Positions 3,762-49,857 of a stretch of 64,000 bases of DNA are shown here, in pieces. The notes beneath the pieces are model-generated. The model had not been told where the DNA came from, ran no database searches, and saw nothing but the letters and a program-made list of their open reading frames with translations. Origin of the DNA: Hymenobacter persicinus (GTDB taxonomy: Bacteria; Bacteroidota; Bacteroidia; Cytophagales; Hymenobacteraceae); contig NZ_SEWE01000008.1 of NCBI RefSeq assembly GCF_004167665.1, positions 62,001-126,000 on the forward strand, in the 5' to 3' direction. The stretch's first letter is position 1. Each line of letters starts with the position of its first letter. The position numbers were made by a program, and so were the translations under genes.

Positions 3762-5147
3762 ATGAAAAGCCGCCTGCGTACCATCTTCTGGCTGATGAGC
3801 CTGTGCATGCTGGGCATCAACGGCTTCCAGGGCTACTGGCTCTACACCACCTACCAGCTCACCACGGCCCAGTTTGCCCGCACCGCCCACGAGGCCCTGC
3901 TCACCGTATTGCAGCGCCAGCAGCTGGCCGAGCTGCAAGCCCTGCTCCGGCCCGCCGCCGGGCCCGAAGCCTACGGGCGCGTGGCCCTGCCCGTGCGCCA
4001 GCTGGATGCTGCCGGCCGCACCCGACTGCGCCAGCTATTGCAGGTGGGCCGCCGGGTGCCGGCCAGCGCCGTGGCCGCCCGCCGGCAGGAGGACAGCGTG
4101 GCGCAGGCGCTGCTGCACTTTCTGCTCCAGAGTAGTGACACGGCTCCCACGCTCAACCTCTCGCACCTAGCCGCGGCCTACCAGACCGAGCTGCGCCTGC
4201 GCGGGGCCGAGGCTGCCTTCCGGTTTGATACCGTGGCCACGGCCGGCCCCCGGCGCGCCCTGGTTCTGCCCGCTGGCTACGCCGTGCAGACGCCCCCCGT
4301 GGCCCTGCCGGCCCTGCCTCGGGTGGCGGTGCAGGCCTCGTTTCAGCCCCCGGTATTCTACGCCCTGCGCCAGATGGGCGGTTTGTTGGCCGGTTCCGTG
4401 GCTTTGCTGGCCCTCACCACGGCCTGCTTCGGGCTGATGCTGGCCACCATTCTGCGCCAGAAGAAGCTCTCCGAAATCCGGGAGGACTTCGTCAATAATA
4501 TGACCCACGAGCTGAAAACCCCGCTGGCCACGGTGACGGCGGCCGTGGAGGCGCTCCAACATTTCGGCGCCCTGCAAGACCCTGCCAAGGCCCAGGCCTA
4601 CCTCGCCATTTCCCGGCACGAGCTGGAGCGCCTTTCCGGGCTGGTCGACCACGTGCTGCACATGGCCGTGGCCGAGCGGGAGCCGCTGCAGCTGGCGCCC
4701 GAAACGGTGCGCCCCGCCGAGCTGGTGGCTGAGCTCGTGGCCCAGCACCAGCTCACGGCCGCCAAAGCCGTGCGCTTCGCCGTGGAGGTGGCCCCGGCCG
4801 CCATCCGCTGCGACCGGCTCCACCTGCGCAACGTTATCAGCAACCTGATCGACAACGCCATCAAGTACTCCCGCGACCAGGTCACGATTACCATCCAGGG
4901 GCAGCCCGAAAGCGCGGGCTGGCGCCTGACGGTCACTGACGACGGCATCGGCATCCCGGCTGACTACCAGCCGGCCGTCTTCGACCGTTTTTTCCGGGTG
5001 CCCACCGGCAATCTGCACCTAGTGAAGGGCTTCGGGCTGGGGCTCTACTACGTGCGGCAGGTCATTGAGCGCCACGGCGGGCAGCTGCGCCTGCACAGCA
5101 GTCCGGGCCGGGGCAGCGCCTTTTCCTTCTGGCTTCCCGCCCTGTAA
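3762..5147 (+). CDS. Two-component sensor histidine kinase
   Basis: 461-residue inner-membrane kinase. Membrane segments lie at about 7-27 and 205-228 and flank a periplasmic sensor of roughly 180 residues with no recognised fold. A HisKA domain follows, with the phospho-acceptor His249 in NNMTHELKTPLA. The HATPase domain shows the N box NVISNLIDNAIKYS, the G1 box DDGIGIP and the G2 box GFGLGLYYV. The stop codon is directly followed by the response regulator gene, so the two form an operon and almost certainly a cognate pair. The signal sensed is unknown. Confidence 0.95.
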   Translation: MKSRLRTIFWLMSLCMLGINGFQGYWLYTTYQLTTAQFARTAHEALLTVLQRQQLAELQALLRPAAGPEAYGRVALPVRQLDAAGRTRLRQLLQVGRRVPASAVAARRQEDSVAQALLHFLLQSSDTAPTLNLSHLAAAYQTELRLRGAEAAFRFDTVATAGPRRALVLPAGYAVQTPPVALPALPRVAVQASFQPPVFYALRQMGGLLAGSVALLALTTACFGLMLATILRQKKLSEIREDFVNNMTHELKTPLATVTAAVEALQHFGALQDPAKAQAYLAISRHELERLSGLVDHVLHMAVAEREPLQLAPETVRPAELVAELVAQHQLTAAKAVRFAVEVAPAAIRCDRLHLRNVISNLIDNAIKYSRDQVTITIQGQPESAGWRLTVTDDGIGIPADYQPAVFDRFFRVPTGNLHLVKGFGLGLYYVRQVIERHGGQLRLHSSPGRGSAFSFWLPAL

Positions 5148-36920: not shown

Positions 36921-38222
36921 ATGGCCAACCGCCTCAAACCCCTATCCCACGCGGCCTGGCAAGCCCAGCAAGCCCGCATAGTTCTCTCGGCGGCCAGGCG
37001 TCTTGACTGGCGCCGCTGGTCGCTGCCCCAGCAAGTCGATTACCTGCTCGCCCTGCGCGGTTCCCTGCCCGCCCTCGAAGCCCAGCTCGGCGACAACTCG
37101 GTGCTGACGGTATTTTACCGCCACTGCCTGCACGAGCAGCAAGAGCCGGTGCGCCAGCAGTGCGCCGGGCTGCTGCGCGGCCTGGCCGCCAAGCGCACCG
37201 AACTGCTCTGGCGACCCGAGCTGGCCCCGGCGTTGGCGGCCGTGGCCCGCAATCTGCCCCGGCGCTGCCGGGAGCTGGCCGACTGGCAGCCCCGCAGCCG
37301 CAACCCGTTTCGGCAGCTGGAAAGCCTGGTGCGCCACCTGTTCGACCACTACCACGACGTGCCGGCCTGGGTGCTCAACTCCTGGACCGCCGGCCGCCTC
37401 CGCGACGGGCTCAGCATTGCGGACCTGACCGTGTATTTGGGCCGGGGACAAGCCCTGCGCACTTTCCCGGGGCTGCCGGTGCCGCTCAGCCGCCGGGTCG
37501 AGCACTACCTGCGCCTCGCCCCGGCCGGCTACACCTTCCTGCAGGCCCTGCGCTACGCCCAGCTCGCCGCCCGCGGGCAGCTGGCCTGGCTCGGGCCGGT
37601 GCTCGACTCCCGCCTGGGCCGCTGCCTGGGCCGCGACGACGAATTCTGGCTGCGGGTCGTGGATTTCTTTGCCGCCGCCCCCATGGTAGACCCCTACCAG
37701 CTGGGCCCCGTGTGCGACTGGATTCACCAGAAGCGGACGGTGGGTTTCGGCGACGAGCCGGCCCAGCCGGGCTTCTCGCTGAAGGGCCGCTCCATGAGCA
37801 GCCTTCTGATCCAGACGGCGCAGTGGCACCGGCAGCTAAGTCAGGCGGCCCACCGGCCGGCTGAGCCCAGCCTCACGCTGGCCACCACTTGGGCGCCGCT
37901 GCCGGTGCCCGACTTCAGCGGGGGGCACCAGTGCCCGGTGCGCATCACCCAGCTGCGCACCTACGGCGACCTGGTTGAGGAGGGGCGGGGGCTGCGGCAC
38001 TGCGTGGCGTCTTACCTCGACTCCTGTCGGCGCGGCCGCAGCGGCATCTTCTCGCTCACGCTCAACGGTCTGCGTCGGGTAACGCTGGAAGTGCAGGCCA
38101 ACCGCACCGTGGTGCAGGCCCGGGGCGTGTTTAACCGCCGCCCCAACGACGAGGAAGGCGCCTGGATTCAACGCTGGGCCGCCGACCACCGCCTGCTCGT
38201 GCCCAAGCACTTGCTGGGCTAA
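36921..38222 (+). CDS. PcfJ-domain protein of the Ro60/RtcB locus
   Basis: 433 residues. The C-terminal part (about 330-425) matches the PcfJ domain: EEGRGLRHCVASYLDSCRRG around His360, then IFSLTLNGLRRVTLEVQANR and VVQARGVFNRRPN. PcfJ proteins are known from conjugative plasmids and phages, but their biochemical role is unknown. The N-terminal 300 residues are helical and Arg/Leu-rich, with no named domain. The TROVE gene follows after 59 bp in the same direction, so a role with Ro60, Y RNA or RtcB is inferred from position only. Confidence 0.8.
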   Translation: MANRLKPLSHAAWQAQQARIVLSAARRLDWRRWSLPQQVDYLLALRGSLPALEAQLGDNSVLTVFYRHCLHEQQEPVRQQCAGLLRGLAAKRTELLWRPELAPALAAVARNLPRRCRELADWQPRSRNPFRQLESLVRHLFDHYHDVPAWVLNSWTAGRLRDGLSIADLTVYLGRGQALRTFPGLPVPLSRRVEHYLRLAPAGYTFLQALRYAQLAARGQLAWLGPVLDSRLGRCLGRDDEFWLRVVDFFAAAPMVDPYQLGPVCDWIHQKRTVGFGDEPAQPGFSLKGRSMSSLLIQTAQWHRQLSQAAHRPAEPSLTLATTWAPLPVPDFSGGHQCPVRITQLRTYGDLVEEGRGLRHCVASYLDSCRRGRSGIFSLTLNGLRRVTLEVQANRTVVQARGVFNRRPNDEEGAWIQRWAADHRLLVPKHLLG

Positions 38223-38281
38223 AGCGCCCGCCGCGGCCAATTGAATAACTCATTGTTTCACCACCTCACCCTTCCCACCGC

Positions 38282-39808
38282 ATGCGCTTCAACTTTACTT
38301 TCCGCAAAGCCAAGACCGTTCTCAACCACGAGGGGGCGGTAGCCTATACCCTCACGCCCCAGCTGGAGCTCTACGCGGCCGTCGCCACGGCGGCCCTCAG
38401 CGACCAGTTCTACGAAACGGCCGATGCCCGCCTGCTCCGTTTGCGGGAGCTGGTGGCTCGCAACGACCCCGAATTTGTGGCCCGGCTGGCCGTCTACGCC
38501 CGGGAGCAGCTCTACCTGCGCACCGTGCCCCTGGTGCTCACCGTGGAGCTGGCCCGCCGCCACCGCGGCACCAGCCTGGTGAGCCGCCTCGTGGCCCGGG
38601 TGGTGCAGCGCGCCGATGAAATCACCGAATTGCTGGCCTACTACGCCCAGGCCAACGAGCGGGACGGGGTGAAAACCCTGGGCCGCCTCTCCAAGCAGGT
38701 GCAGAAAGGCCTGGCCCGGTCGTTCAACAACTTCGACGGCTACCAGCTGGCCAAGTACGACCGCGCCGGCCGGGTGCGCCTCCGCGACGCGCTGTTCTTA
38801 GTGCACCCCACCGCGAAAAGCGCGGAGCAGCAGCATCTGTTCGACCAGCTCGTGCAGGGTACGCTGCCCACGCCCTACACCTGGGAAACCGAGCTGTCGG
38901 CCCTGGGGCAGCAGCAGTTTGCTTCGGCCCAGGCCCGCACCGCGGCCTTCCGCACGGCCTGGGAAACGCTCATCGGCTCGGGCAAGCTGGGCTACATGGC
39001 CCTGCTGCGCAACCTGCGCAACATCCTCGAAGCCGACGTATCGGCCCGGGCGGTGGAGCGGGTGTGCGCCACCCTGGCCGATGCCGGGGCGGTGGCCCGG
39101 GCCAAGCAGCTGCCCTTCCGCTTCCTGGCCGCGTACCGCGAGGTGCTGCTGGTGCAGTCGGGCTACGTAGCGGTGGTGCTCGAGGCGCTAGAAACGGCCA
39201 TCGGACACAGCGCCGCCAACCTGCGGGGCTTCGGCCTCGATACCCGGGTGGTGGTGGCCTGCGACGTGTCGGGCTCGATGCAGACGCCCGTATCGGCCCG
39301 CAGCAAGGTGCTGCTCTACGACGTGGGCCTGGTGCTGGGCATGCTGCTGCAAAGCCGCTGCGGCCACGTGACCACCGGTATGTTCGGCGACACCTGGAAG
39401 CGCGTCAGCCTGCCCCGGGGCCGGGTGCTGCACAACGTGCAGGAGTTCTACCGCCGCGAAGGCGAGGTCGGCTACAGCACCAACGGCTACCTGGTGATTC
39501 AGGACCTGCTGCGCCGCCGCGAGGTGGTGGATAAGGTCATGATTTTCACCGACTGCCAGCTCTGGAACAGCACTGGCGACGGTGGCACTCTGGCTCAGGC
39601 CTGGATTGACTACCGCCGCACGGTGGCGCCCCGGGCCCGGCTCTACCTCTTCGATCTGGCCGGCCACGGCGCCGCGCCCGTCGAAGTGCGCGAGGGCCAC
39701 GGCGCGGCCCTGATTGCCGGCTGGTCCGACAAAGTGTTCGACGTGCTGGCGGCCCTGGAAAACGGCGGCTCGGCCCTGACCGAAATCGGGAAAATCGAGC
39801 TGGCGTAG
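38282..39808 (+). CDS. Ro60-like TROVE/vWA RNA-binding protein (Rsr type)
   Basis: 508 residues. The N-terminal TROVE domain (about 1-310) is a HEAT-like ring that binds Y RNA and the ends of misfolded RNA (FYETADARLLRLRELVARND, FVARLAVYAREQLYLRTVPL, LGYMALLRNLRNILEADVS). The C-terminal von Willebrand A domain (about 320-500) has an intact MIDAS DVSGSM at 328-333 and a later TDCQLWN strand. In other bacteria Rsr binds Y RNA, aids rRNA maturation and joins exonucleases. It sits directly before an array of Y-RNA-like modules and rtcB, which supports the assignment strongly. Confidence 0.95.
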   Translation: MRFNFTFRKAKTVLNHEGAVAYTLTPQLELYAAVATAALSDQFYETADARLLRLRELVARNDPEFVARLAVYAREQLYLRTVPLVLTVELARRHRGTSLVSRLVARVVQRADEITELLAYYAQANERDGVKTLGRLSKQVQKGLARSFNNFDGYQLAKYDRAGRVRLRDALFLVHPTAKSAEQQHLFDQLVQGTLPTPYTWETELSALGQQQFASAQARTAAFRTAWETLIGSGKLGYMALLRNLRNILEADVSARAVERVCATLADAGAVARAKQLPFRFLAAYREVLLVQSGYVAVVLEALETAIGHSAANLRGFGLDTRVVVACDVSGSMQTPVSARSKVLLYDVGLVLGMLLQSRCGHVTTGMFGDTWKRVSLPRGRVLHNVQEFYRREGEVGYSTNGYLVIQDLLRRREVVDKVMIFTDCQLWNSTGDGGTLAQAWIDYRRTVAPRARLYLFDLAGHGAAPVEVREGHGAALIAGWSDKVFDVLAALENGGSALTEIGKIELA

Positions 39809-39854
39809 GGCTTCGCTACCGGACTGTCTACTTCATTTTATTCACCATTCATCA

Positions 39855-39917
39855 CCCCAAGGTCGGGGGCCTAAATGCCCAGCCAATCGGGCTGGGCCTG
39901 CCTCCGGCCACTTGGGG
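39855..39917 (+). ncRNA. Long structured hairpin after the Ro60-like gene
   Basis: 63 nt fold into one rod: CCCCAA/TTGGGG (39855-39860 with 39912-39917), a 2-nt bulge, a 10-bp stem GGTCGGGGGC/GCCTCCGGCC with two G-U pairs, a 5-nt bulge and an 8-bp hairpin GCCCAGCC/GGCTGGGC. No T run follows, so it is not a simple terminator. It may protect or process the mRNA end, or be a divergent Y RNA. Confidence 0.6.
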
Positions 39918-39925
39918 AAAACACC

Positions 39926-40076
39926 GGGAAAGGTGCCGTAGGCTGGCGATACTTCGTGGTTAACGTTTTCGGTTACTGCTGCTTCGGCGGCGGTATCGCG
40001 CGGGTTCGAGTCCCGCATCCGGCCTTCCGGGGGCGGATGACGAAAACACTTCGCCGCCCGCCCGTTGCCCTTTTCT
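39926..40076 (+). ncRNA. Y-RNA-like module 1
   Basis: 5' motif GGTGCCGTAGG at 39932-39942, 3' motif GTTGCCC at 40064-40070, the latter followed by TTTT. A GCGATAC/GTATCGC stem precedes a tRNA-like T arm (40000-40016, 5-bp stem, loop TTCGAGT). An acceptor-like stem ATCCG/CGGAT follows, with a TTCC loop region. The D-arm position holds only a CGAA/TTCG mini-hairpin. Confidence 0.75.
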
Positions 40077-40097
40077 GATTGTAATAGCCCGCTCTTT

Positions 40098-40229
40098 GGC
40101 GTGGTGCCGTAGCCGGGCGTTCCTTCGCTTGGTGAAGCCGGTGGTCTGCGGACTGTCCGGCCTGGGTTCGAGTCCCGCTGGGCTGCCTTCGGGTAGCCCA
40201 GACGACGCCCGGCGCCTGTTGCCCTCGCT
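40098..40229 (+). ncRNA. Y-RNA-like module 2
   Basis: 5' motif GGTGCCGTAG at 40103 and 3' motif GTTGCCC at 40218-40224. An 8-bp CCGGGCGT/ACGCCCGG stem links the two halves. The T arm (40163-40177, TTCGAGT loop) leads to a 7-bp acceptor-like stem CTGGGCT/AGCCCAG extended by 3 bp and capped by a TTCG tetraloop (40178-40201). The D arm is reduced. Confidence 0.8.
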
Positions 40230-40257
40230 CGACGAGTGGAGCTGTTGCAAAAAACTC

Positions 40258-40385
40258 CCGCCGGGTGTCGTCGGGAAGCGTTCCTTCGGGTTACGGGTTC
40301 GAATCCTGGCGGGCACCGGTCCTGGCGGCCGGTGCCGGCAGCTCAGCTTGGTAGAGCACGCGCTTTCCTCTTTTTACCCCGGTGG
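40258..40385 (+). ncRNA. Y-RNA-like module 3
   Basis: Variant motifs GGTGTCG (40264-40270) and TTACCCC (40374-40380). Outer stem CCGCCGGG/CCCGGTGG and inner 8-bp stem GGGAAGCG/CGCTTTCC. The T arm (40294-40308, TTCGAAT loop) is followed by an acceptor stem (CGGGCAC with GTGCCGG, six of seven pairs) capped by a short hairpin, then a canonical D arm GCTCAGCTTGGTAGAGC (40341-40357). Confidence 0.85.
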
Positions 40386-40395
40386 AATTGATCTA

Positions 40396-40545
40396 CTGTT
40401 CTGTTCGGGTGCCGTAGGGGCGCAATCCTTCGAACCTTACTGACGGGGACCCTTGTCTACCGCGCTGCTGGTGAGCGGCGGCGAGTGGTGGAAGGTGGCT
40501 GCGCCAGGGGGTGGGGCGCTTCGCTGGTTGCCCCGAACGGAACAG
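40396..40545 (+). ncRNA. Y-RNA-like module 4, without a T arm
   Basis: 5' motif GGTGCCGTAGG (40408-40418) and 3' motif GTTGCCC (40527-40533). The outer stem is the longest of the array, 14 bp (40396-40409 with 40532-40545, one G-U). An inner GGCGCA/TGCGCC stem follows. There is no TTCGAAT T loop; the interior instead folds into G/C-rich hairpins. Confidence 0.7.
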
Positions 40546-40552
40546 AGAATAC

Positions 40553-40697
40553 CTCGTTGGGTGCCGTAGCTCAGCCTTACTTCGCACTGTTAATGCCCGG
40601 GTCGGGGGTTCGAATCCCTCCCGTCGGTGGTCAAGCCGGCGGTAGCTCAGCTGGTTAGAGCAGGATAACGGGCTGGGCGCTTTGTTGCCCCAACGAG
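40553..40697 (+). ncRNA. Y-RNA-like module 5
   Basis: Outer stem CTCGTTGGG/CCCAACGAG (9 bp, perfect). Motifs GGTGCCGTAG (40560) and GTTGCCC (40684-40690). T arm 40604-40620 (GGGGG, TTCGAAT, CCCTC), acceptor stem CCGTCGG/CCGGCGG (7 bp, one G-U) closed by an 8-nt loop, then a fully canonical D arm GCTCAGCTGGTTAGAGC (40645-40661). It is the best example of a permuted tRNA-like fold here. Confidence 0.88.
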
Positions 40698-40709
40698 CTG
40701 TTACAACTG

Positions 40710-40832
40710 CTTACCGGGTGCCGTCGGACGGCGCTACTTCGGTGAGGCTCCGCTGCGGAGCCGAGCGGGTTCAACTCCCGCACCCCGGGGCCTGGTCCCC
40801 GGGCGTCGCCCTCCGCCCGTTGCCCCGGTAGG
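40710..40832 (+). ncRNA. Y-RNA-like module 6
   Basis: Outer stem CTTACCGGG/CCCGGTAGG (9 bp with one T-G pair). Motifs GGTGCCGTCGG (40717) and GTTGCCC (40819). An inner GGACGGCG/CGCCCTCC stem has one mismatch. A GGCTCCG/CGGAGCC hairpin precedes the T arm (40765-40781, loop TTCAACT), which leads to a 7-bp acceptor stem CCCGGGG/CCCCGGG. No D arm. Confidence 0.8.
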
Positions 40833-40844
40833 CAGCTTTGTTTT

Positions 40845-40979
40845 CCTGCGTGGTGCCGTAGGGTCGCCTTCCTTCGGGATACTGAGGTCGTGGGTTCGAA
40901 TCCCACCTGCCGCAAGGGCAGTAGCCTAGGGGTTAGGGCGCAGTGTAATGGTGGCGGCCCGCCTGGTTGCCCACGCGGG
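40845..40979 (+). ncRNA. Y-RNA-like module 7
   Basis: Outer stem CCTGCGTGG/CCACGCGGG (9 bp, one G-U). Motifs GGTGCCGTAGG (40852) and GTTGCCC (40966). Inner stem GGGTCGCC/GGCGGCCC (8 bp, one G-U). T arm 40890-40906 (GTGGG, TTCGAAT, CCCAC, perfect), acceptor CTGCC/GGCAG with a GCAAG loop, and a D arm GCCTAGGGGTTAGGGC (40924-40939). Confidence 0.88.
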
Positions 40980-40988
40980 GGCCGGGCC

Positions 40989-41060
40989 GTAAACGGTGTC
41001 GTGGGGGAGTCTTACTTAGAACTCAACATCCGAAGGCTTCCCGCCTAATTACCCGTTTGC
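40989..41060 (+). ncRNA. Y-RNA-like module 8, stem-only mini-module
   Basis: Outer stem GTAAACGG/CCGTTTGC (8 bp), variant motifs GGTGTCG (40995) and TTACCC (41049-41054), inner stem GGGGAGTC/GGCTTCCC. The 72-nt module has no T or D arm, only a short loop, and is followed by a T6 run at 41076-41081. Confidence 0.7.
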
Positions 41061-41098
41061 GCGCTTTGGCAACGCTTTTTTCACTTAACAACGCGGCC

Positions 41099-41130
41099 GG
41101 CGGCGGCACCGGAATCTGGGTGCCGCCGCC
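41099..41130 (+). promoter_or_regulatory. 12-bp hairpin in the rtcB leader
   Basis: GGCGGCGGCACC (41099-41110) pairs perfectly with GGTGCCGCCGCC (41119-41130), leaving an 8-nt loop, 61 nt before the chosen rtcB start. There is no T run after it. Its 3' arm contains the GGTGCCG string of the array motifs, so it may affect processing or translation of rtcB. Confidence 0.5.
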
Positions 41131-41190
41131 TTGCAAGAGGCCGTCTTTCTTCTTTCAATGAACTCAACGGTCCTCAGGACCACGCTTTTT

Positions 41191-42591
41191 ATGGCCAATC
41201 AACTACGCGGCAACGACCTTCGGCAGCTCGGCTTCCCCGAAGGCCGCGCCATCGGCCTTGCCCTGGCGCAGCTCCAGCGCAAGCACCTGAAAAAACTCTC
41301 TCACTCCGACCAGCTGGCGTTGCTCCAGCGCCTGCTGGCCGCCCCCCAGGAGTACGCCACCCACCTCGACTGGAGCCACGTGGCGGCGGCCCTGCTGCCC
41401 CCGCCTTCCCGCCACCTCGAGCTGGTGGCCCGCAAACCCTACGCCCTCTACGGGGCCGAGCACATCGAGCCCGGGGCCCTGCACCAGATGGATACGGCCA
41501 TGAAGCTGCCCGTGACGGTGGCCGGGGCGCTGATGCCCGACGCCCACCACGGCTACGGCCTGCCCATCGGGGGCGTGCTGGCGACGGACAACGCCGTGAT
41601 TCCCTACGCCGTGGGCGTCGACATCGGCTGCCGGATGGCGCTGTCGGTGTTTGCTTTGCCGCCCAAGTTTATCGGGCAGCGGGTGCAGGAGCTCCAGAAG
41701 CTGCTGCTCGACAACACCCGCTTCGGCAACCGTACCGGCTTCGACCGGGGCAAAAAGCTCACCCACGAAGTGCTGGAGAGTGACACCTTCCGCGACGTGC
41801 CCTTCCTGCGCAACAAGCAGGCAACGGCCGCCGAGCAGATTGGCACTTCGGGCTCCGGCAACCACTTCGTGGAGTTCGGTATCGTGGATATCACCGACCC
41901 CTCGAATGAAATGGGTTTGGCGGTGGGTCAGTACGTGGGGCTGCTTTCGCACTCCGGCTCCCGGGGCCTGGGCGCCTCGGTGGCCAACCACTACACCAAG
42001 CTGGCCATGGAAAACTGCCAGCTGCCCGCCGAAGCCAAGCACCTGGCCTGGCTCGGCCTCGACGGGGAGCTGGGGCAGGAGTACTGGGCGGCCATGACCC
42101 TGGCCGGCGACTACGCCTCGGCCTGCCACGAGCACATCCACCAGCGCCTGGCCAAGGCCCTCGGGGAACGGCCATTGGCGAAAGTGGAAAACCACCACAA
42201 CTTCGCCTGGAAAGAGCGCCTGCAGGACGGCCGGGAGGTGATTGTGCACCGCAAGGGCGCTACCCCGGCCGGGGCGAGCGTGCTGGGCATCATCCCCGGC
42301 TCGATGACGGCCCCCGGCTTTATCGTTCGGGGGCGGGGCGTGGCGGAGTCGCTCGGGTCGGCCTCGCACGGGGCCGGGCGGCTGATGTCGCGCACCCGGG
42401 CCAAGCAGGAGCTCAGCGAAGCCCAGGTGCGGCAGTACCTGAAGGCCCACGACGTGGCCTTGCAGGGCGGGGGCGTCGATGAGGCGCCCATGGCCTACAA
42501 GGACATTCACGCCGTGATGCAGAGCCAGCGGGAGCTGGTGGACGTGCTCGGCTCCTTCACCCCGAAAATCGTGCGCATGGACGGGGCATAA
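41191..42591 (+). CDS. rtcB: RtcB RNA ligase (3'-phosphate/5'-OH)
   Basis: 466 residues from the ATG at 41191 (MANQLRGNDL); an ATG 33 bp upstream is possible. RtcB seals 2',3'-cyclic-phosphate or 3'-phosphate ends to 5'-OH ends with Mn2+ and GTP. Family motifs are intact: MPDAHHGYGLPIGGVLA, GVDIGCRM (Mn-ligand Cys), GTSGSGNHFVEFG, LLSHSGSRGLG, NHHNFAWKE and the guanylated His in LGSASHGAGRLMSRTRAK. It is the last gene of the PcfJ/TROVE/Y-RNA locus. No rtcA or archease is nearby, so it may work without an accessory factor or use one elsewhere. Confidence 0.97.
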   Translation: MANQLRGNDLRQLGFPEGRAIGLALAQLQRKHLKKLSHSDQLALLQRLLAAPQEYATHLDWSHVAAALLPPPSRHLELVARKPYALYGAEHIEPGALHQMDTAMKLPVTVAGALMPDAHHGYGLPIGGVLATDNAVIPYAVGVDIGCRMALSVFALPPKFIGQRVQELQKLLLDNTRFGNRTGFDRGKKLTHEVLESDTFRDVPFLRNKQATAAEQIGTSGSGNHFVEFGIVDITDPSNEMGLAVGQYVGLLSHSGSRGLGASVANHYTKLAMENCQLPAEAKHLAWLGLDGELGQEYWAAMTLAGDYASACHEHIHQRLAKALGERPLAKVENHHNFAWKERLQDGREVIVHRKGATPAGASVLGIIPGSMTAPGFIVRGRGVAESLGSASHGAGRLMSRTRAKQELSEAQVRQYLKAHDVALQGGGVDEAPMAYKDIHAVMQSQRELVDVLGSFTPKIVRMDGA

Positions 42592-47079: not shown

Positions 47080-47102
47080 CGAGACGCAAGTATGCGTCCC
47101 TT
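47080..47102. repeat. Half copy of the interspersed inverted-repeat element
   Basis: GAGACGCAAGTATGCGTCCC matches the right end of the elements at 5849-5942 and 42604-42702. It abuts the 3' end of the methyltransferase gene. Confidence 0.5.
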
Positions 47103-49857
47103 ATGCGGCGTAGCCCTCGGGCGTGAGGCGAATCAGGCTCAGGGCGGCCAGGGTGGCCAGCAGGGGCTCCACCTTGTCGGCTTTGAGGCGCTTGAAGCGG
47201 GCGGCGACCTGGGCGGCGGTCAGGGGCTGGCCGGCCTGCTGGAGGGCGTCGCGCAGGGTCTGCATCTGCTGGGCCAGCTCGGTGGGGAAGGGTGCCTCAC
47301 CCCCCGTCCCCCTCTCCGGAAGAGAGGGGGAGCCAGCCGACTTCCCTTTTGCGGGCTTGGCGGCCTGCTCGGCCAGGGCGATGCTGGTTTGCACGGTGTC
47401 GGGGGCCTGGTAGGCGGGGCGCAGGTAGCGGACGGTGCCGGCGGCTTCCTCGGCGGCGCGCTCGTGGTTGAGGCGGACCAGGCGGGTGAGGATATCGGCG
47501 TCGGGCAGGGCGGGGGGCCAGCCGTAGGCTTCGGCCACGGCCGCGTCGAGCTGCTGGTGCAGGCTGAGGACCACGGAGGCCAGGCCCTGCTGGTTCACGG
47601 TCTGGTCTTTGGCCGACAAGGGCTGGGCGGCGCGCAGCTTCTCCACCACGGTGTAGAGGTCGGTGAGGGTGAGGCCGGGGTGCTGGGTTTGCTGGCGCTT
47701 GCGGTGGGCGTCGAGCTGCTCGGCCAGCTCCCGGATGCGGGCCTGCTGCGCGGGCGTGGCGGCGGGGAAGGGGAACGGGTCGAAGCAGCGGGTTTTGTTG
47801 TAGATGAGGTCATTCCCGACGCCCATTCTTCCTCCAGTAGCAGCAGCCCAAACTGTATGAAAACGGCTCATCAATACGCCCAAATAGTAAGCATCGTCTA
47901 GTGCAACGACTACTAGCCGATTGTCAGGTAATACCTGCCCATCAATAAATTGAAAGAACCGGTGCTTTGATGTTTCAATAGTTGCTATGTATCGTTGAAG
48001 CCCAGCTAATGCAGCCCTAAGGTCGTCCCTCGTTCTTCCGTGAAGCCACCAATTTGCTTTAACACGAGGCTCCTTGCTTAGGTCACGCTCGGGTTTTACT
48101 CTCTCTAAAATATGCTGGAAAACCGAAGGGTGTTTCTCTAATGCTTCTCCTTCATTTAATCCGAAGAAGTCTATAACTAATGCACCTCTAGAATTACCAG
48201 CTAAATCACGGCCGTTTAAGTAGGGTCGGATTACACTGTCTGTATGGGCATTTTGAAATGCTGCTGCTTCCTCTTTCGTTAGAATGAAGCCAGCGCCATA
48301 CAACTGGACACCTCTATTAGATAAACCATCATTGCTTTTCAACGCATTAGCACTATCCAGTGCAGCACCAATCGACAAGTCAGAAAGAATCAAGCCTTTC
48401 TGTTCCTCAAAAGTCACTTCCGCCGCTTCGTCGCCTTCCGCTACGGATTCCGTTTTCAGAATCCAGAGCTGGCCGGGCGCGGCTACGGTGAGGGTGCGTT
48501 CGGCTACCGTCATGGCGATGCGCACGGCGGCTCCTTCGGCGGCATCGACCCAGGGGTGGTCGGGAATGGCGAAGGTGAGGGTGAGCGGGGCCGGGTCGCC
48601 TTCCAGGAAGGGCTGCATCACGCGGCGGTTGAAGGTTTGCTTGAGGCTGTTGGTGGTGATGAAGCCGAACCGCTCGGCGGGGCCGCGCTGCACGGCGGCC
48701 GCGGCGTTGTACCACCAGTACATCACCAAATCGGCCGAGTCGGGCACCTTGCCCTTGTAGGCTTTGCGCAGGGCTTCGGTGTAGCCGTCACCGAGGGCGT
48801 CGCGCATGCGGGCCGGCCCCACAAACGGCGGGTTGCCCACGATGAAATCAGCTTCGGGCCACTCGGCGGGGCGGGGGTTGGGGTAGTCGAGCACGGGGGT
48901 GCGGGCGGTTTCGTCGGGCACGGGCTGGCCGGTGGCGGGGTGCAGGCGGGTAGTGCCGTCCCAGCGCGTAACGGGCTGGCCGTGGGCGTCGAGGCGGGGC
49001 GTGGGCGGGTCGTGGCGCAGGGCGGCGTCCTGCTGGCGGATGTTCTGGTACTCGTCGAGCAGGGGCTCGGAGAGCTGGGTGATGCCGTGGGTGCGCAGGT
49101 GCCATTGCAGGTAGCCGATGCGCAGCACCACGTCGGCAATGGCCGCCGCGCGCGGGTTCAGCTCCAGGCCCAGCAGCTGCCGGGGCGAGACGGTGGTGCC
49201 CCCGCCCAGGTCGAGCAGGCCGGTGTGGCCGAAGGCGTTGATGGCGGCCAATACCTCGCCCTCCAGGCGCTTGAGGTGCTCCAGCGTGACGTAGAGGAAG
49301 TTGCCGGAGCCGCAGGCGGGGTCGAGGATGCGCAGCCCGGTGAGGCGGGTGAGGAAGCGCACCAGCTCCTGGCGGGCTTCCCGGGGCTGGCCTTCGTCGA
49401 GGCGGCGGGCGCTGGCGGCCTGGGCGGCCGTCCACTCCCGGCGCAGGGGTTCGAGCACGGTGGGCAGCACCAGGCGCTCCACGTAGCGGCGCGGGGTGTA
49501 GTGGGCGCCCAGGCTGTGCCGCTCCCGGGGGTCGAGGGCGCGCTCCAGCAGGGTGCCGAAGATGGCGGGCTCCACCTCGGTCCAGTCGGCTTCGGCGGCT
49601 TTGAGCAGCAGGGCCATCTGGTCGGGGGTGAGGGGCAGGGCGGTGGCGTCGTGGAAGAGCTTGCCGTTGAAGCGCCGCAGCCGGGCCTTGAGGTCGGGGG
49701 AGAAGCCGCCGGTATCCATCGTATGCCAGAGGCCGCTCAGGGCATCGGGCAGAAACTCGCGCATCTCGGGGGTGGAGTAGGTGCGCAGCATACCCGTGAA
49801 GCTCGTCTTGGGAATCAGCCCCACGTCCTCGGAGAACATCGTGAACAGGCAGCGCAT
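47101..49857 (-). CDS. MmeI-like restriction-modification protein, methyltransferase and specificity part
   Basis: 918 residues. A helical spacer (1-110) precedes an N6-adenine methyltransferase domain: motif I in LRILDPACGSGNFLYVTLEH (about 176-195) and motif IV GNPPFVG (about 341-347). A target-recognition region (about 480-680) is followed by a C-terminal region. It starts two codons after the TAG that ends the nuclease ORF and is in the same frame, so both parts were one protein of about 1160 residues. The DNA for the recognition region (about 47830-48420) is much more A/T-rich than the rest. Confidence 0.85.
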   Translation of the reverse strand: MRCLFTMFSEDVGLIPKTSFTGMLRTYSTPEMREFLPDALSGLWHTMDTGGFSPDLKARLRRFNGKLFHDATALPLTPDQMALLLKAAEADWTEVEPAIFGTLLERALDPRERHSLGAHYTPRRYVERLVLPTVLEPLRREWTAAQAASARRLDEGQPREARQELVRFLTRLTGLRILDPACGSGNFLYVTLEHLKRLEGEVLAAINAFGHTGLLDLGGGTTVSPRQLLGLELNPRAAAIADVVLRIGYLQWHLRTHGITQLSEPLLDEYQNIRQQDAALRHDPPTPRLDAHGQPVTRWDGTTRLHPATGQPVPDETARTPVLDYPNPRPAEWPEADFIVGNPPFVGPARMRDALGDGYTEALRKAYKGKVPDSADLVMYWWYNAAAAVQRGPAERFGFITTNSLKQTFNRRVMQPFLEGDPAPLTLTFAIPDHPWVDAAEGAAVRIAMTVAERTLTVAAPGQLWILKTESVAEGDEAAEVTFEEQKGLILSDLSIGAALDSANALKSNDGLSNRGVQLYGAGFILTKEEAAAFQNAHTDSVIRPYLNGRDLAGNSRGALVIDFFGLNEGEALEKHPSVFQHILERVKPERDLSKEPRVKANWWLHGRTRDDLRAALAGLQRYIATIETSKHRFFQFIDGQVLPDNRLVVVALDDAYYLGVLMSRFHTVWAAATGGRMGVGNDLIYNKTRCFDPFPFPAATPAQQARIRELAEQLDAHRKRQQTQHPGLTLTDLYTVVEKLRAAQPLSAKDQTVNQQGLASVVLSLHQQLDAAVAEAYGWPPALPDADILTRLVRLNHERAAEEAAGTVRYLRPAYQAPDTVQTSIALAEQAAKPAKGKSAGSPSLPERGTGGEAPFPTELAQQMQTLRDALQQAGQPLTAAQVAARFKRLKADKVEPLLATLAALSLIRLTPEGYAA

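Follow-up and report, generated by a model that had tools for sequence, protein, structure and literature searches.

The 64-kb stretch of Hymenobacter DNA analysed here (the window) carries, between its Ro60 and rtcB genes, a tandem array of eight modules that are predicted to be Y RNAs of the YrlA type. This identity, proposed in an initial annotation of the DNA, is supported by covariation in five module sets, by matches with the Rfam YrlA family in both search directions, those in the window being below the Rfam cut-off, and by co-occurrence with Ro60. What was established directly comprises the covarying stem common to the modules, their domains resembling tRNA, the orthologous relation of modules in different species and the association with Ro60. 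Beyond this, we consider it probable that the eight predicted Y RNAs originate from one precursor, each docking onto Ro60 and presenting a different effector domain.

Module array and neighbouring genes

The array spans positions 39925-41061 of the plus strand. All eight modules open with GGTG[CT]CG and close with GTTGCCC (six) or TTACCC (two), at the places given in the initial annotation. The signature TGYCGT-N(4-22)-TMCTTM was found eight times on the plus strand of the window and not on the minus strand. The features of the locus are listed below with the scores of two covariance models, R1 and R2, which are described in the following sections; z refers to folding against shuffles.

36921..38222, plus strand: PcfJ-like protein directly 5' of Ro60 (Pfam PcfJ, E 4.3e-11)
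38282..39808, plus strand: Ro60 orthologue (Pfam TROVE, E 1.1e-30; vWA_Ro60, E 1.4e-6)
39855..39917, plus strand: M0, long hairpin with CCTAAATGC (GGGGGCCTAAATGC...) just 5' of M1, not a Ro-stem module
39925..40077, plus strand: M1, T arm and acceptor-side hairpin, no D arm; R2 52.0 bits, E 6.9e-10; z -2.04
40096..40231, plus strand: M2, T arm and capped acceptor stem, no D arm; R2 35.9 bits, E 4.6e-6; z -3.39
40257..40386, plus strand: M3, full permuted tRNA domain, GGTGTCG/TTACCC type; R2 60.0, R1 44.7, YrlA 27.6 bits
40401..40540, plus strand: M4, no T or D arm; R2 34.6 bits, E 9.4e-6; z -2.34
40553..40697, plus strand: M5, full permuted tRNA domain, most conserved module; YrlA 35.5 bits; in the R2 training set
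40710..40832, plus strand: M6, T arm and capped acceptor stem, no D arm; R1 36.1, R2 31.7 bits
40845..40979, plus strand: M7, full permuted tRNA domain; R2 82.4, R1 47.1, YrlA 38.6 bits
40988..41061, plus strand: M8, short, Ro stem and small loop only; R1 58.6 bits (in the R1 training set); z -2.61
41131..42591, plus strand: RtcB RNA ligase (Pfam RtcB, E 2.1e-81); longest open frame, the true start codon being probably further in

Six module bodies are 123-145 nt long, M1 has 153 nt and M8 74 nt; six of the eight lie within the length of about 90-150 nt given for YrlA-type Y RNAs (PMC8394870). Folding of each module, a check that the initial annotation had proposed, gave structures better than shuffles for all eight (z -2.0 to -3.4). 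In M3 both the T arm and the D arm, and in M5 the D arm, are absent from the single-sequence minimum-energy folds, so these arms rest on the alignments described below.

For comparison, genome contigs were scanned for the Ro60 protein, which yielded 367 relatives. The best 80 of these were analysed; they are mostly from Hymenobacter, and also from Pontibacter, Cesiribacter, Chryseobacterium, Mucilaginibacter, Saprospiraceae and others. Together with a 13-kb piece of the window they make up 81 sequences of 1.04 Mb in total.

The M0 motif stands at the same place in five close relatives among the best 80 of 367 (L033-L037), that is, in 6 of 81 loci with the window. Between M8 and rtcB, a strong GC-rich hairpin at 41097-41130 is perhaps a terminator or a regulatory element. 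Further downstream, a large gene for an MmeI-type restriction-methylase lies on the minus strand at 47101-49857.

A shared stem with covariation

The common stem consists of an outer helix, a U bulge, a covarying C-G/U-A pair, an internal loop and a second helix, followed by UACUUCG. For 317 of 442 modules, pairing alone identified a good 3' partner for the outer strand; ahead of this partner stand T in 91% (position -4) and C in 92% (position -1), the motif not having been used in the choice. The TTGC motif sits in fixed register with this stem defined by pairing alone. With TTRC as the anchor, offset 4 fitted 318 modules, and offsets 2, 3, 5 and 6 fitted 0, 15, 15 and 9. A register with the 3' strand right after TTR was rejected, as it fitted 20 of 442 modules against 318 when moved by one base.

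Mutual information recovered the outer helix, a biased result, as that helix had been selected, and also two unselected elements. These were the pair 2/-2 (C-G 202, U-A 55, U-G 29, others 31; n=317) and the second helix (positions 8-14 with -11 to -17), for which the top list contains six of the seven pairs. R1 was trained on 28 short modules, most of them from the 80 loci. In these, 92.1% of cells are paired, compared with 42-51% when the partner is slid, and 17 of 19 pairs have compensatory changes; RNAalifold gives the same 19 pairs. Altogether, compensatory base changes were seen in five module sets. The 5' and 3' ends of the modules form a conserved bulged stem, as in YrlA, and this shared covarying stem is likely the Ro60-binding stem.

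The outer stems had been described as pairing only within their own module. They do pair there, at 7-9 of the inner 9 positions, but not exclusively: five cross-pairings (M2-M7, M3-M6, M5-M3, M5-M6 and M6-M3) reach 8 of 9, with self-pairing at 7 for M2 and 8 for M3. Nor, contrary to the initial annotation, are the stems specially orthogonal. Across all loci, cross-pairing of the outer 6 positions is 2.83 within an array and 2.57 between arrays; since it is not lower within arrays, the outer stems show no selection against cross-pairing, and the idea of orthogonal outer stems was abandoned.

tRNA-like domains of the modules

R2 was built from M5 and 38 relatives, nearly all of them reciprocal best matches. 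In these 39 sequences, 40 pairs in seven helices are 96.1% paired (36-46% when slid) and 21 pairs are compensated, providing the covariation among homologues that the initial annotation had demanded of itself. None of 500 shuffles equalled the alignment in any of the five measures used. Pairs of the D arm and of the stub are almost invariant in this set and therefore say little by themselves.

The M5 domain runs in the order variable loop (AGGUC type), 5-bp T arm, 7-bp loop-closed acceptor, U8-A9 and 4-bp D arm, with a CC/GG stub in place of the anticodon stem; U8-A9 follows the usual tRNA numbering. As judged from the alignment, this is the geometry of a tRNA whose ends have been moved to the Ro stem, a circular permutation. 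Compensation was also found in the sets of M7 (16 sequences; 17 of 33 pairs) and M3 (14 sequences; 15 of 29 pairs), both of which keep the D arm, and of M6 (13 sequences; 14 of 35 pairs), which keeps the T arm and capped acceptor and has no D arm.

As the initial annotation had counted, six modules (M1, M2, M3, M5, M6 and M7) have a T arm and three (M3, M5 and M7) a D arm; a further D arm flagged by pattern in M2 proved on reading to be part of the M2 acceptor hairpin. The circularly permuted YrlA layout that it had recognised was borne out by the M5, M7 and M3 alignments and is complete in these three modules only. It is partial, lacking the D arm, in M1, M2 and M6, and M4 and M8 have no tRNA features. 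R2 matches M1 to M7 in the window and R1 matches M8; as M5 and M8 belong to the training sets, the R2-M5 and R1-M8 matches arise by construction.

The T and D arms resemble tRNA, so tRNA gene debris, or recent repeats, had to be weighed as an origin of the modules. The acceptor is loop-capped and the anticodon arm is absent, where a tRNA gene would have free acceptor ends and an anticodon arm. ARAGORN called no tRNA in the array, and Rfam at gathering scores gave no match anywhere in the 64-kb window, tRNA included. The acceptor strands agree at 1-5 of 7 positions with the best-scoring host tRNAs among the matches listed, and no particular host tRNA resembles the six T-arm modules (30 of 50 tRNA loci, 28 isoacceptors compared). 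Capture of particular host tRNAs was rejected, no ancestor having been found among these 28 isoacceptors. In the window's own genome, R1 matches at E <0.02 are confined to the array and the next has E 0.68 (150 of 1878 candidates scored), which is the opposite of the scattered tRNA gene fragments that the initial annotation had named as its possible undoing. Stems that are relaxed and uncompensated, as debris would show, were not seen either. With the compensatory changes and the conserved module order (see below), debris or recent repeats are an extremely improbable explanation.

Association with Ro60 and with rtcB

In the 81 sequences, the signature has 445 matches on the Ro60 strand, compared with 10 on the opposite strand; 442 of the 445 are located 3' of Ro60, no more than 5 kb away from it. 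The modules are thus encoded beside the Ro60 (TROVE) gene, as YrlA is. The 52 Hymenobacter-type loci, including the window, have 2-11 modules by signature (median 6), and the other 29 have 1-11 (median 4); at least three modules are present in 76 of 81 loci (best 80 of 367 and the window), with a maximum of 11. Arrays are therefore usual beside Ro60 in the loci examined and not peculiar to the genome of the window. All 266 R1 matches at E <=0.01 in the best 80 of 367 loci are on the Ro60 strand.

Among 204 genomes of the family, 108 contain Ro60 or part of it and 100 have R1 matches, all inside the 108; none of the 96 genomes without Ro60 had an R1 match. Eight Ro60 genomes were R1-negative. 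Four of them, with full-length Ro60 (G042, G043, G111 and G203), have four R2 matches each, and in the remaining four (G038, G075, G130 and G167) Ro60 appears as fragments, broken frames or a weak match. Two genomes, G054 and G093, have only Ro60 remnants, yet an R1 match is present, which may be decay in progress.

In a phylum sample of 395 genomes, TROVE was present in 28 and R1 in 18, 17 being shared. R1 thus matched in 17 of 28 TROVE-positive and 1 of 367 TROVE-negative genomes, and 33 of 34 R1 matches, among the matches listed, lie within 2.5 kb of a TROVE match. The exception is the match in G333: at most 2 kb separate it from the end of the contig, and the adjacent gene has a PcfJ-like reading, so that the Ro60 gene of this genome may lie on a different contig. 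Among the eleven genomes with TROVE only, two (G042 and G043) have modules and the other nine may have none.

Other genes also recur in the best 80 of 367 loci. A PcfJ-like relative is near the Ro60 arrays in 28 of them, a microbial PARG in 23 and Hen1 in 5. Further sites of these recurrent neighbours (PcfJ-like, PARG or Hen1) are as follows.

L033, 7659-8504
L062, 7659-8591
L070, 10293-11591
L089, 8602-10008

RtcB is present in 62 of the best 80 of 367 loci, namely 51 of 51 Hymenobacter-type and 11 of 29 others. As a general partner of the arrays it was discarded, since it is unsupported outside Hymenobacter-type loci. The array precedes rtcB in the window, and an RtcB gene is in the fetched stretch of all 51 Hymenobacter-type relatives, as would be expected if the array were a cis-regulatory leader of rtcB that senses damaged tRNA. 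However, the arrays do not regularly precede rtcB: among the best 80 of 367 loci it is downstream in 58, upstream in 4 and not found in 18, some contigs ending early, which also bears on the 11 of 29. At least one module is present in all 80, including those where RtcB was not found, and module presence tracks Ro60. We regard a leader function as very unlikely.

Differentiated paralogues and a common precursor

By global alignment, M5 of the window and its counterpart are each other's best match in 47 of 48 Hymenobacter-type loci. For M8, M1, M3, M6, M2, M7 and M4 the counts are 23, 22, 22, 21, 18, 17 and 7 of 48; weak reciprocal matches can be due to chance, so that those for the less conserved modules are upper limits. 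Module order is kept in 27 of 36 loci with at least three such pairs, whereas no more than about 6 of 36 would be expected from random order (1/3! = 1/6). Module-module scores within the window do not exceed 0.42, but the M5 score is higher than 0.42 at 46 of 48 loci, which speaks against recent duplication. Judging from these alignments, the paralogous modules are old and differentiated, and their order is often conserved.

The linkers between the modules are 8-25 nt long in the window, and 166 linkers have a median of 12 (quartiles 10 and 16) and an AT content of 62%, compared with 42% in the modules. In some 12 AT-rich bases a promoter for each module would overlap its neighbour, which makes a common transcript cut at the linkers likely. 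A scan of 38100-41300 for sigma-70 promoters and of 38001-41250 for the Bacteroidota -33/-7 promoter pattern found none, and terminator-like sites were not in excess (4 found, 3.0 expected). We infer from linker length that one precursor RNA is likely processed at the linkers, and a processed polymer, as envisaged in the initial annotation, is plausible given the same 8-25 nt linkers.

The array might instead stay one long RNA and serve as a multivalent scaffold, bringing several Ro60 rings and, perhaps, RtcB together on one molecule. The closeness of the modules and the lack of a promoter between them in the scans would suit such a scaffold, but the AT-rich linkers look like cut sites rather than structure, and some loci have no more than one or two modules by signature. 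We consider the scaffold improbable.

Possible functions

Under the preferred reading of separate Y RNAs from one precursor, the modules would be transcribed together and then cut at the AT-rich linkers, and the shared covarying stem of each would be its likely Ro60 dock. By analogy with YrlA, M3, M5 and M7, and in part M1, M2 and M6, could link Ro60 to a nuclease, for example PNPase, or to tRNA elbow-binding proteins, and the main role of M4 and M8 may be to fill the Ro60 ring or control access to it. Which Y RNA is chosen would then determine the action of each Ro60 particle in RNA damage or repair. YrlA of other bacteria is described as a tether between Ro60 and PNPase and as a modification substrate (PMC8394870). 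YrlA-type Y RNAs are bound by Ro60 and contain pseudouridine and dihydrouridine.

A different role has been proposed for Salmonella YrlA, that of a decoy or competitor for an anticodon nuclease or other tRNA-attacking enzyme (PMC7790460), and the tRNA-like modules could likewise be decoys or competitive inhibitors held by Ro60. M5 keeps the tRNA elbow geometry, and RNA-repair genes are common as neighbours. On the other hand, the modules lack an anticodon arm, no particular host tRNA was matched among the 28 isoacceptors, M4 and M8 have no tRNA domain, and the nuclease does not cut Salmonella YrlA (PMC7790460). The decoy role therefore appears unlikely. The reports on the function of bacterial Y RNAs that are cited here rest on Deinococcus and Salmonella. 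In an array of module types kept across a genus, removing one head at a time would make Y RNA function testable.

Modules in phages and other phyla

R2 gave one match in Deinococcus gobiensis (E 3e-19), six in Caulobacter phage CcrColossus, and four and three in two Brevundimonas phages. On a Rhizobium etli plasmid it matched the RNA called YrlA by Rfam (98.4 bits, E 9e-11), a second RNA (E 4e-16) and a weak third (E 0.002). Weak matches in a haloarchaeal plasmid (E 0.002-0.004) overlap tRNA genes, and Allomeiothermus gave no R2 match. As in the window, the R2 modules of the R. etli plasmid, D. gobiensis, CcrColossus and the two Brevundimonas phages are beside Ro60; unlike in the window, those of the three phages and D. 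gobiensis are before Ro60, not after it. The predicted Y RNA arrays before phage Ro60 are the following.

L162 (CcrColossus), 1339-2446
L153 (Brevundimonas phage), 2334-2938
L163 (Brevundimonas phage), 1787-2434

Modules of these phages overlap an annotated tRNA-Gln (L162 1661-1728) and an annotated tRNA-Ser (L153 2802-2876); phage records were thus found in which such RNAs overlap tRNA annotations. Among IMG/VR contigs with Ro60, R1 matched at E <=0.01 in 5 of 7.

In crAss001, whose TROVE gene is transcribed early according to a review (PMC10136315), the 905-base gap after this gene contains several UUACUUC motifs in stem-like modules. Two of its RNAs read as un-permuted tRNAs (7-bp acceptor, D-side and T arm) in which a UUACUUC capped stem replaces the anticodon arm. 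The pattern script found both hybrids in PhiCrAssBcn5 and the first in cr106_1, and cr112_1 has a fitting 142-nt tRNA match. The candidate un-permuted tRNAs 3' of crAss-like phage TROVE genes are located as follows.

L150 (crAss001), 4477-4619
L150 (crAss001), 4732-4869
L154, 4391-4531
L157, 4458-4600
L157, 4713-4850

The remaining anticodon-stem pairs of the hybrids are GTA/TAC in crAss001 and GCAG/CTGC in cr106_1. Like the window modules, the RNAs of crAss001, cr106_1 and PhiCrAssBcn5 combine a tRNA-like domain with a UUACUUC stem directly 3' of TROVE; unlike them, they have normal tRNA ends and a Ro-like stem that is capped and stands in the place of the anticodon arm, and R1 misses them. 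At E <=0.1, R1 found nothing in four phage loci including crAss001 (the best being a partial match of E 0.68 in L152) or in eleven further phage and plasmid loci. R2 at E 0.1 found nothing in L155, L156, L157 and L161, and one weak match (E 0.0024) in L154. The reading of the crAss RNAs therefore draws on the sequences themselves, long-span tRNA matches and the pattern script. For the crAss001 hybrids, folding energies are in the ordinary range (z -1.67 and -0.49, the second having been cut five bases late), so with the R1 result they represent a sequence reading rather than a proven family. The script also returned spans in nine other loci, of which we read six as the separate RNA described next and the rest as chance spans over several modules.

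This separate, conserved tRNA-like RNA of about 195 nt is near Ro60 in 6 of the best 80 of 367 loci.

L087, 6440-6629
L090, 4715-4910
L098, 4032-4228
L104, 7564-7766
L108, 5717-5911
L111, 7750-7949

It has an acceptor, a D-like arm, a T arm and a long insert with GTGCACCGAAATA-like and GGAAGCGYATTT motifs; the RNA of L087 gave no Rfam match at E 0.01.

A wider reading, which we put forward tentatively, would join the bacterial and phage observations. The arrays could be a polycistronic toolkit in which a single precursor gives rise to as many as eleven RNAs that share the dock and bear separately conserved heads, the choice of RNA programming Ro60. The tRNA head would come in two topologies, the permuted one of bacteria and caulobacter-type phages and the un-permuted one of crAss-like phages, in which the dock replaces the anticodon arm and the RNA may be a living intermediate between tRNA and Y RNA. 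Such un-permuted hybrids would bear on how tRNA became Y RNA.

Comparison with known Y RNAs

At a looser threshold, Rfam YrlA (RF02553) matched M7, M5 and M3 with 38.6, 35.5 and 27.6 bits (E 1.4e-6, 1e-5 and 0.0021), the gathering score being 69; at gathering, YrlA was not called in the window or in 11 relatives. The array supplies covariation for RNAs that are uncalled by the Rfam YrlA cut-off in the loci checked. The parts of the modules match YrlA-type Y RNAs as described in PMC8394870 and PMC7790460, so the class is already known. Among the papers listed by the searches, none deals with Y RNA arrays in tandem or with the Y RNAs of Hymenobacter or of crAss-like phages; the main reports on bacterial Y RNAs, outside this search, may describe multi-Y loci. 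Among those papers, no account was found of an array whose members are differentiated, of the usual occurrence of such arrays next to Ro60 in the loci examined, or of the phage variants.

Like YrlA in the rsr-yrlBA-rtcBA locus of Salmonella, the modules of the window adjoin Ro60 and rtcB, form the Ro stem from the two ends of the RNA and carry a permuted T arm, loop-capped acceptor and D arm (PMC7790460, PMC8394870). In contrast to the two RNAs of the Salmonella locus, the window has eight differentiated modules. They also differ from YrlA in their conserved GGUGCCGUAG, UACUUCG and UUGCC motifs, in the lack of a D arm or of the whole tRNA domain in several modules, and in scores under the Rfam cut-off. 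The vertebrate Y RNA likewise forms a bulged Ro60-binding stem from both of its ends and, unlike the tRNA-like modules of the window, has no tRNA-like domain.
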